A program made the position numbers and the translations under genes. Positions 26,271-29,263 of a DNA stretch of 64,000 nucleotides are shown here, piece by piece (the first letter of the stretch is position 1; each line of letters starts with the position of its first letter). Under the pieces are notes generated by a model. The model did no database searches and was not told the origin of the DNA. It saw only the letters and a list, made by a program, of their open reading frames with translations. The DNA is taken from NCBI GenBank assembly GCA_002255955.1, contig NKIM01000018.1, positions 52,535 to 116,534 of the forward strand, given 5' to 3'. The stretch comes from Burkholderiales bacterium PBB2 (GTDB lineage Bacteria > Pseudomonadota > Gammaproteobacteria > Burkholderiales > Burkholderiaceae_C).

Positions 26271-27125
26271 ATGACAGCGCGTCGTGATCTTTTATCCCTG
26301 ACCCGCAGCACCGGAGCCGCTGCGTCCTTGTTCATCAAGGACATCGGCCAAGGCCTGCTGGTCGTCAGCCACAACACCCTGGCCCTGGTTGGCCTGGCCG
26401 TGGTGGCTGTGCTCCTGACCTTTGCCAGCCAGGCTGAACTGCGCCAGCAACTCGAAGGCCAGGCCCGTGGCTGGCTCCATGCCCGCCAAGAAGCCCGCAA
26501 TATCGCCGACGGCAACACGCTGATCGGCAACGAGGAACCAGACGCCATCGCCCGCGCCACGGCGGTCGACCCCAAGGACCTGCCCCGCCAGCAAGCCGCC
26601 ATCGCCCAATGGGTGGCGCGCCGCTACAAGGTGGCGCCCGAGCCCATCAGCCGCTTGGTGCAGGAAGCCTACGCCGTGGGTCAGCGTGCCCGGGTGGAAC
26701 CGACCCTGATCCTGGCCATCATGGCCATCGAGTCGGCTTTCAATCCTTTTGCGCAAAGCACGGTGGGCGCCCAGGGCCTGATGCAAGTCATGACCCAGGT
26801 GCACAACGACAAGTACGAAGCTTTTGGCGGCAATTTCGCCGCCTTTGACCCCATCACCAATATGCGGGTGGGCGTGCAAGTGTTGAAGGAGTGCATCCAG
26901 CGCGCGGGCACGGTCGAGGAAGGCCTGCGTTTTTACGTCGGCGCCGCCAACCTGCCCGACGAAGGCAACTACACCAGCCGTGTGTTGGCCATGCAGGAAC
27001 AGCTGAAAGCCGTGGCTTCCGGCCGCGCCCTGCCCGCCCGACCGTCCAGCACGCCGATGGCCGCACCCAAGCTGCCGAGCGGCACCGCCGTTGTCGAAGA
27101 CGAGCGCGTCGCCCAGCTGCGCTGA
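26271..27125 (+). CDS. Membrane-anchored lytic transglycosylase
   Basis: A 284-residue SLT-type murein lyase that cuts peptidoglycan glycan strands to 1,6-anhydro ends. A single transmembrane helix (LALVGLAVVAVLLTF, near residues 40-55) anchors it with the catalytic domain in the periplasm. The SLT signature is AIMAIESAFNPFAQSTVGAQ with catalytic Glu in IES, then GLMQVMTQVH and NMRVGVQVLKEC. The tail is Pro/Ala rich. AAGGAG lies four bases before the ATG at 26271; the track's earlier start is not supported. It has a strong promoter and an unusually structured leader. Confidence 0.9.
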   Translation: MTARRDLLSLTRSTGAAASLFIKDIGQGLLVVSHNTLALVGLAVVAVLLTFASQAELRQQLEGQARGWLHARQEARNIADGNTLIGNEEPDAIARATAVDPKDLPRQQAAIAQWVARRYKVAPEPISRLVQEAYAVGQRARVEPTLILAIMAIESAFNPFAQSTVGAQGLMQVMTQVHNDKYEAFGGNFAAFDPITNMRVGVQVLKECIQRAGTVEEGLRFYVGAANLPDEGNYTSRVLAMQEQLKAVASGRALPARPSSTPMAAPKLPSGTAVVEDERVAQLR

Positions 27126-27198
27126 GCGCAGCCAGCCCTGTGCTTTGACGAAGCCAGCTTCCTCGGGAGCCCCTGGCGCTGCAGCTACACTGCAGCCT

Positions 27199-27328
27199 TC
27201 GCGCGACTGGCGATCAAGGAGGGCCAGGTGACCGAGCGTCACCGGCAGCCTGAGGTGGTGGACCACCGGGAAGCGCGAACGTCGATGGGCTGAACCCCAC
27301 GCCGACTTCAGCCGTTCGCCTGGGCAGC
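27199..27328 (+). ncRNA. ZTP (pfl) riboswitch upstream of glyA
   Basis: The 5' half has CGCGACTGGCG, followed by a variable arm and GGTGGTGGACCACCGGG, a hairpin, then AAGCGCG closing on the first strand. The 3' half carries GCCGTTCGCCTGGGCA, the hallmark conserved segment of ZTP/pfl riboswitches. The family senses ZTP/ZMP, signalling shortage of 10-formyl-tetrahydrofolate, and often controls glyA. Downstream, TGCCCAG (27364-27370) can pair with CTGGGCA (27320-27326) in the aptamer, or form a GTGCCC/GGGCAC hairpin (27363-27382), giving a plausible on/off switch. Confidence 0.9.
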
Positions 27329-27408
27329 TTGGTCTCGCTGATGCACCCATTTCTTCAAATCGGTGCCCAGCCGGACGGGCACTCCACCTCTAGAGCACTG
27401 CCACCCCT

Positions 27409-28659
27409 ATGTTTGACCGTAGCACTTCCACTCTCGCCCAAGTCGATCCGGATCTCTGGGCTGCCGTCCAGAACGAAAACCGTCGCCAGGAAGATCACAT
27501 CGAGCTGATCGCCTCGGAAAACTACACCTCGCCGGCCGTCATGCAGGCGCAGGGCAGCCAGCTGACCAACAAGTACGCCGAGGGCTATCCCGGCAAGCGC
27601 TACTACGGTGGCTGCGAGTACGTGGACGTGGTCGAACAGCTCGCCATCGACCGCCTGAAGGAACTCTTTGGCGCGAACTACGCCAATGTGCAGCCCAACT
27701 CTGGCTCGCAAGCCAACCAGGGCGTGTTCTTCGCCCTGCTGCAGCCGGGCGACACCATCATGGGCATGAGTCTGGCCGAAGGCGGTCACCTGACCCACGG
27801 CATGGCCCTGAACATGAGCGGCAAATGGTTCAACGTCATCTCCTACGGCCTGAACGCCAAGGAAGAGATCGATTACGACGCCATGGAAGCTCTCGCCCGG
27901 GAGAAGAAGCCCAAGCTGATCATCGCGGGCGCTTCTGCTTACAGCCTGCGCATCGATTTCGAGCGTTTCGGCAAGATCGCCAAAGAAATCGGCGCCTACT
28001 TCATGGTGGACATGGCCCACTACGCGGGCCTGATCGCCGCGGGCGTCTACCCCAACCCGGTACCGCACGCCGATGTGGTGACATCCACCACCCACAAGAG
28101 CCTGCGCGGCCCGCGTGGCGGCATCATCCTGTGCAATGACGAAGCGATCGCCAAGAAGATCAACTCGGCCATCTTCCCCGGCATCCAGGGCGGCCCCCTG
28201 ATGCACGTGATCGCCGGCAAGGCCGTGGCCTTCAAGGAAGCGCTGACGCCCGAGTTCAAGGCCTACCAGGCTCAGGTGGTCAAGAACGCCAAGGTCCTGG
28301 CCGACACCTTGATCGAGCGCGGCCTGCGCATCGTCTCGGGCGGCACCGAGAGCCACGTCATGCTGGTGGACCTGCGCCCCAAAAACCTGACCGGCAAGGA
28401 AGCCGAGGCCATCCTGGGCGCCGCCCACATGACCTGCAATAAGAACGGCATCCCCAACGATCCGCAAAAACCCATGGTCACCAGCGGCATCCGCCTGGGC
28501 ACGCCGGCCATGACCACGCGTGGATTCAAGGAAGATCAGGTGCGCGCCACCGCTCACCTGATCGCCGATGTGCTGGACAAGCCGCACGACGAAGCCAACC
28601 TCGCCGCCGTGCGCGAGAAGGTGGCGGCGCTGACGCGCGACTTCCCGGTCTACCGCTGA
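27409..28659 (+). CDS. glyA: Serine hydroxymethyltransferase
   Basis: PLP enzyme (416 aa) that interconverts serine and glycine and charges tetrahydrofolate with a one-carbon unit. Motifs are [34 protein letters not shown], the PLP lysine region [16 protein letters not shown] and the C-terminal [15 protein letters not shown]. The start ATG at 27409 has no clear Shine-Dalgarno site, and CCACCTC lies about 20 bases upstream. The ZTP riboswitch immediately upstream fits control by folate one-carbon status. nrdR follows after 24 bases. Confidence 0.98.
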
Positions 28660-28683
28660 GCCTGATCCAGGCACGACACGCCG

Positions 28684-29127
28684 ATGCGCTGCCCCTTTTG
28701 CAATCATGGAGAAACCCAGGTCGCCGAGACCCGGGAATCGGATGAAGGCGATGTGGTGCGCCGTCGGCGTCGCTGCCTGGGTTGTGACAAGCGCTTCACC
28801 ACCTACGAGCGCGCCGAAATTGCCTTGCCAGTGGTGGTGAAGAAAGACGGCACGCGCGCGGACTTTGATTCCCGCAAGGTTCGCGCGTCCATGCAACTGG
28901 CGCTGCGCAAGCGCCCGGTCAGTATTGAACAAATCGACGCCGCCCTGCTGCGCATCGAAGAAGCCCTGCTGACCAGCGGCGCCCGCGAACTGCCCTCGAC
29001 CAAGCTGGGCGAGCTGGTCATGCGCGAACTCAAGCGCATCGACAAAGTGGCCTACGTCCGCTTTGCCTCCGTGTACCGCAGCTTCGAAGATGTGGACGAG
29101 TTCCGCCAGCTGATCCGCGAGATCTGA
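28684..29127 (+). CDS. nrdR: Transcriptional repressor NrdR
   Basis: Zinc-ribbon and ATP-cone repressor (147 aa) of ribonucleotide reductase genes. The N-terminal zinc ribbon MRCPFCNH and [13 protein letters not shown] supplies four cysteines and is followed by the ATP cone ([20 protein letters not shown]). The C-terminal [17 protein letters not shown] is diagnostic. It follows glyA by 24 bases and likely shares its riboswitch-controlled transcript, linking one-carbon supply to deoxynucleotide control. Confidence 0.97.
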
Positions 29128-29162
29128 GCCGCTTCTAGCGCCACACGGTGTCGCAATACCAT

Positions 29163-29200
29163 CCCCCACCAAAGAGGGGGTCCACTCCCACCTCGGAGTG
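29163..29200. repeat. Two back-to-back hairpins between nrdR and the pilin cluster
   Basis: CCCCC/GGGGG with an eight-base loop (29163-29180) is followed by CACTCC/GGAGTG with a six-base loop (29183-29200). No T tract follows. They may end the glyA-nrdR transcript or structure the fimT leader. Confidence 0.45.
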
Positions 29201-29263
29201 ACAGAGTTTCAGACCTGCGCCTCCTAGATTGTGTTCATCGAGATGAATACCAGGAGTTGGATC

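Follow-up and report, generated by a model that had tools for sequence, protein, structure and literature searches.

The glyA leader of Burkholderiales bacterium PBB2 carries a ZMP/ZTP riboswitch, located within the 64,000-nucleotide stretch of DNA analysed here as a whole (hereafter, the window). This element is an ordinary folate-stress-sensing switch, and its arrangement is known from related bacteria. We consider it probable that it combines a ZTP aptamer with an OFF state based on a downstream invader strand, that it turns on at folate shortage and that its output most likely lies at the level of glyA translation. A shortage of 10-formyl-THF would lead to a build-up of ZMP/ZTP and thereby to expression of glyA, probably together with nrdR by readthrough. 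In the ligand-bound state, P1, P2, P3 and the pseudoknot would retain the strand CGUUCGCCUGGGCA; in the ligand-free state, the invader UGCCCAGCCGGACGG would capture this strand, and P3 and the pseudoknot would be taken apart. Such a switch would follow the strand-displacement logic of clostridial ZTP riboswitches, minus their U-tract.

Identity and Architecture of the Aptamer

When the entire window was scanned with the covariance models of Rfam 15, a single match exceeded a curated cut-off. This match, to RF01750 (ZMP/ZTP riboswitch), lies at positions 27193–27332 of the + strand, the strand of all features described below, and scores 54.4 bits (E 4.4e-6), the curated cut-off of the family being 39 bits. 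It covers the complete model (positions 1–86 of 86), and the genome contains no other. The aptamer is beyond chance, and beyond doubt. The preliminary description of this DNA, made from its letters, had recognised a ZTP riboswitch ahead of glyA-nrdR and had called for a scan with the ZTP/pfl model; the scan bears out this identification, and both open reading frames are named by NCBIfam. The short motifs on which that description was built are also all found where it had placed them: CTGGGCA at 27320–27326, TGCCCAG at 27364–27370, GTGCCC at 27363–27368, GGGCAC at 27377–27382 and CCACCTC at 27384–27390, with the ATG of glyA at 27409.

According to the Rfam alignment, the 5' strand of P1 (27195–27204) pairs with 27273–27282, with one C-C mismatch (C27197/C27280). 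The pseudoknot-forming strands ACUGGCG and CGCCUGGGC are both present. Within them, GGCG of J1/2 (27209–27212) is complementary to CGCC (27317–27320), the position having been checked and the pairing being taken from the known fold of ZTP aptamers. An extra hairpin, GGTGAC-CGAGC-GTCACC (27227–27243), is seen from sequence and fold between J1/2 and P2, inside a 36-nt insertion of the Rfam alignment. The heptamer GAGGTGG (27252–27258) includes the 5' strand of P2. The P3 stem-loop (27309–27327), whose core pairs join 27311–27313 to 27323–27325, bears the loop L3 CGCCTGGGC, which is unchanging among relatives, and the conserved aptamer strands CGCGCGACUGGCG, CCACCGGGAAGCGCG and GCCGUUCGCCUGGGC are all found in the window. 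The aptamer belongs to the 5' leader of a one-carbon/purine gene, glyA beginning 76 nt downstream, and it likewise lies in the glyA leader in the 90 distinct aptamer-bearing leaders that were compared.

Distribution in Related Bacteria

RF01750 was detected in 236 of the 301 sampled genomes of the family, representing 120 of 141 genera, and in 17 of the 18 genomes of the genus. These counts confirm that control of glyA by ZTP is near universal in the family. The nearest named GlyA is that of Roseateles asaccharophilus (98% identity), and the window probably derives from the Roseateles/Paucibacter group of Burkholderiales.

The first description of the pfl motif already listed glyA among its five most frequent genes (PMC2864571), and a pfl/ZTP riboswitch ahead of glyA was reported in Herbaspirillum seropedicae (PMC7011215). 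In Cupriavidus metallidurans, which belongs to the same order, trimethoprim induces a pfl-glyA-lacZ fusion (PMC10882993). Because the association of ZTP riboswitches with glyA is already published in Burkholderiales, the aptamer and its link to the gene have low discovery value. The elements of C. metallidurans and H. seropedicae share with that of the window the aptamer class, the gene, the position in the glyA 5' leader, the bacterial order and a single copy per genome. The direction expected for them, as for the window, is ON under folate shortage, and switching genes on is the typical effect of ZTP riboswitches (PMC9481103; PMC2864571). We therefore infer that the element of the window would respond to its ligand in the same direction.

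The glyA-nrdR Pair

The gene behind the riboswitch, glyA (27409–28659), encodes serine hydroxymethyltransferase (NCBIfam NF000586, 671.6 bits). It is followed 24 nt downstream by nrdR (28684–29127; TIGR00244, 182.5 bits). No promoter-like site was found between 27100 and 29250, and both genes probably form one operon, which makes a co-regulation of nrdR by readthrough plausible as judged from gene order and spacing.

It had been proposed that linking nrdR to the switch would couple folate shortage to the repression of dNTP genes. The adjacency is real, nrdR being found behind glyA in 71 of the 78 loci with enough sequence. However, nothing points to a special circuit: the same order also occurs at loci with no RF01750 match above the cut-off, for example those of Thiobacillus (L096, L106 and L114). 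The adjacency is thus independent of the switch and calls for no special explanation; a new folate-nrdR circuit was rejected as its cause. Furthermore, the activity of NrdR is set by the adenine nucleotides that it binds, so that a higher level of NrdR would not necessarily strengthen repression. A literature search combining riboswitch, nrdR and glyA found nothing relevant.

A Putative Invader Strand Predicted to Dismantle the Aptamer

The preliminary description had noted that CTGGGCA of the aptamer can pair with TGCCCAG downstream. This complementarity is part of a longer one: the aptamer strand CCGUUCG-C-CUGGGCA (27312–27326) and the invader strand UGCCCAG-C-CGGACGG (27364–27378) are predicted to form a duplex of 14 pairs around a single C-C mismatch (−26.5 kcal/mol), which would dismantle P3, its loop and the pseudoknot. 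Among 5000 dinucleotide-shuffled leaders, 22 matched this duplex, and of 1580 real 81-nt stretches taken from the window, 36 (2.3%) pair with the aptamer strand equally well. The 14-bp helix is thus modestly better than chance. The 7-bp pairing by itself does not rise above chance in this GC-rich leader (p = 0.12 in an 8-nt duplex test with the P3 3' strand), and 31 copies of TGCCCAG are present in the 64-kb window. In a group of 20 leaders, comprising 16 of the genus and the four nearest named relatives, no conservation of the invader was seen (median p 0.60, the window alone being below 0.05). Thus, the mutually exclusive pairing is plausible and longer than first noted, yet confined to this sequence and unconserved in the genus.

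Folding energies are compatible with two alternative states. In a local model, whose energies leave aside the ligand and the pseudoknot, the ensembles with P3 enforced (−35.6 kcal/mol) and with anti-P3 enforced (−35.5 kcal/mol) are balanced. The minimum-free-energy fold of the entire leader is uninformative (z = −0.67). The closest known parallel in reach is the pfl riboswitch of Clostridium beijerinckii, whose invader first pairs with the 3' nucleotides of P3 and then moves by branch migration through the pseudoknot (PMC10085676). The 14-bp helix of the window has exactly the same reach. However, pairing of the clostridial invader yields a complete intrinsic terminator, U-tract included (PMC10085676), whereas no U-tract follows the invader in the window, and no terminator-like site was found on the + strand in 27100–29250.

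The other half of the switch as first proposed was a GTGCCC/GGGCAC hairpin, which TGCCC would join instead of the aptamer. Its bases fit better into another hairpin, P4 (27337–27371; GCUG..GCACC..AUUU/AAAU..GGUGC..CAGC), found by folding and by comparison with the nearest relative, the leader L036. P4 is predicted to compete with both arms named in the preliminary description. Combined with P3, the GTGCCC/GGGCAC hairpin reaches a predicted −28.3 kcal/mol and P4, in its place, −34.8 kcal/mol, a difference of about 6.5 kcal/mol. P4 is retained in L036 with a compensatory change of GCACC/GGUGC to GCAUC/GAUGC.

The layout exactly as first proposed would have TGCCC held in the GTGCCC/GGGCAC hairpin when ZTP is bound, with the start region freed; without ZTP, TGCCCAG would pair with CTGGGCA, and GGGCA would be free to mask UGCC (27400–27403). 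All its pieces exist, the chain is logically consistent, and imposing the hairpin lifts the predicted accessibility of CUGCC to 0.64, against 0.21. Nevertheless, the hairpin is the costlier structure by the energy difference given above, and GGGCAC is confined to the window and L036, the other leaders of the group having GGGAC or diverging. Taken as a whole, with both of its states, this layout is quite improbable.

CCACCTC (27384–27390), which had been seen as an anti-SD-like motif near the glyA start, is indeed present. It is exactly complementary to the P2-strand heptamer GAGGTGG (p = 0.043 against shuffles), and GAGGUGG/CCACCUC is paired when the complete leader is folded without constraints. 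This suggests another ligand-free state, in which the P2 strand (27252–27258) would mask the start region through CCACCUC, the pairing being extended by GGCAG/CUGCC, and from which ZTP would free that region by locking P2. Besides the perfect 7-bp match and its presence in the full-leader fold, the group as a whole shows a 7-nt match somewhat better than that of shuffles (median p 0.15; other relatives, 0.45). However, only 2 of the 20 leaders fall individually below 0.05, no covariation of the variable first base (GAGGUGG/AAGGUGG) with its partner was seen among the leaders, and P2 is a strong local hairpin that forms early. The anti-P2 pairing is suggestive at best, and we hold masking by P2 to be very doubtful. 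The block CTCCACYTC is well conserved in the genus.

From Switch to Output

For the switch based on the invader strand, the translational output is suggested mainly by comparison with relatives. Many leaders, chiefly of the Comamonadaceae type (L012, L023, L031, L107 and others), are short and carry AGGACUGCC immediately 5' of the AUG. This element is a Shine-Dalgarno (SD) sequence whose 3' half complements the P3 strand GGCAG and whose AGG extends the pairing into the CCU behind that strand. In a simple two-state model of these leaders, forbidding P3 sends its strand to the AGGACUGCC site and closes the ribosome-binding region; for example, the accessibility of this region in L012 falls from 0.52 to 0.29. 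These models argue for a translational ON switch in Comamonadaceae-type leaders.

The window shares with this platform the aptamer, the gene and, near the AUG, a CUGCC (27399–27403) that leader comparison identifies as a remnant of AGGACUGCC and that is complementary to GGCAG (27323–27327) in the 3' strand of P3. CTGCC lies at most 16 nt from the ATG in 50 of the 90 leaders, against 7.4% of background open reading frames; the contrast is large, but its nominal probability is meaningless given the relatedness of the leaders. This background was drawn from 20 sampled genome stretches and the window, where the initial ATG of each long frame was crudely taken as its start. Within the genus, CTGCC is retained in 3 of 16 leaders (the window and two others). 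In the relatives, the P3 strand, once freed, is predicted to bind the ribosome-binding site, and the CUGCC of this element survives in the window; control of its glyA at the translational level, by descent from the layout of its relatives, would therefore be the most likely output.

The window nevertheless departs from the Comamonadaceae type, since CUGCC alone is kept. The SD core is lost (AGCACUGCC), CUGCC lies 5 nt farther from the AUG and the predicted switching is weak. No SD core 4-mer precedes glyA in the window, as the preliminary description had rightly remarked, and the whole group is alike: a correctly placed SD core 4-mer is found in none of its 20 leaders, against 53 of the 70 other relatives. 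A hairpin that would mask CUGCC before the start codon (27378–27403; GGCACUC..GAG..UGCC) is predicted in both states. Between the two states, the accessibility of the start region is 0.48 against 0.46 in the two-state folding model, and that of CUGCC 0.21 against 0.32 in the local folding model. The start region being almost unchanged, folding leaves the step from switch to output unexplained.

The main rival to a translational output is Rho-dependent termination governed by the same riboswitch. Without ZTP, Rho would load on the C-rich, G-poor end of the leader and early glyA, and the ZTP-bound fold or translation would prevent it. Such an output would agree with the failure to find an intrinsic terminator in the region scanned. 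In addition, 27379–27456 holds 32 C for 13 G, which ranks it among the highest 0.2% of 78-nt windows, and, upstream of and within early glyA, C outnumbers G by a median ratio of 2.4 in the group, against 1.56 in the other relatives. However, this C-richness may be no more than a mark of SD-free initiation and of the beginning of the glyA coding sequence, and folding does not predict any ligand-dependent exposure of 27379–27456. Altogether, a Rho-dependent output appears unlikely. The stretch 27379–27456, which runs from the last part of the leader into glyA, is rut-like.

A broader proposal concerns the whole Roseateles/Paucibacter lineage: its ZTP-glyA leader may have given up both the terminator and an occludable SD in favour of another readout (Rho access or SD-independent initiation), with fast-changing, lineage-specific invaders. 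This generalization is speculative and, in our estimation, unlikely to hold. The SD-free variant would offer a useful test of riboswitch control where neither an obvious terminator nor an obvious ribosome-binding site is present.

Diversity of Expression Platforms among Related Leaders

The comparison of the 90 leaders means that the platform behind one conserved aptamer differs from clade to clade. In Oxalobacteraceae, P3 competes instead with a perfect GGCAGCC/GGCUGCC hairpin, which lies a long way 5' of a free SD. Such a perfect or near-perfect P3 competitor (GGCAGCC...GGCUGCC) was seen in L070, L076, L079, L081–L083, L086, L088, L090–L092 and L103, about 60–80 nt 5' of the free SD, and in several of these leaders the competitor is followed, after some 10 nt, by a U-rich run. 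This platform is probably different and perhaps transcriptional.

Leaders of the Cupriavidus type (L062, L064, L066, L068, L069, L077 and L085) share a near-invariant stretch after P3, CTCGCCTGGGC(C)AGCGAATGGGAAGCAGGGTGCGCCCTG, which is separated from the AUG by 140–200 nt, a conserved platform unlike that of the window. Whereas these leaders carry this different, invariant downstream element, the window has its own invader and no SD before glyA.

Two leaders (L033 and L038) contain a short TTG-started frame whose end coincides with the glyA start (..ATGTTTGA) and which would permit translational coupling. This frame was rejected as a mechanism for the window, where its start codon is absent. 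Two others (L118 and L123) bear variants of L3, CGCCTGGGTGG and CGCCGGGGC, ahead of glyA and score under the Rfam cut-off; they are possibly degenerating ZTP aptamers.
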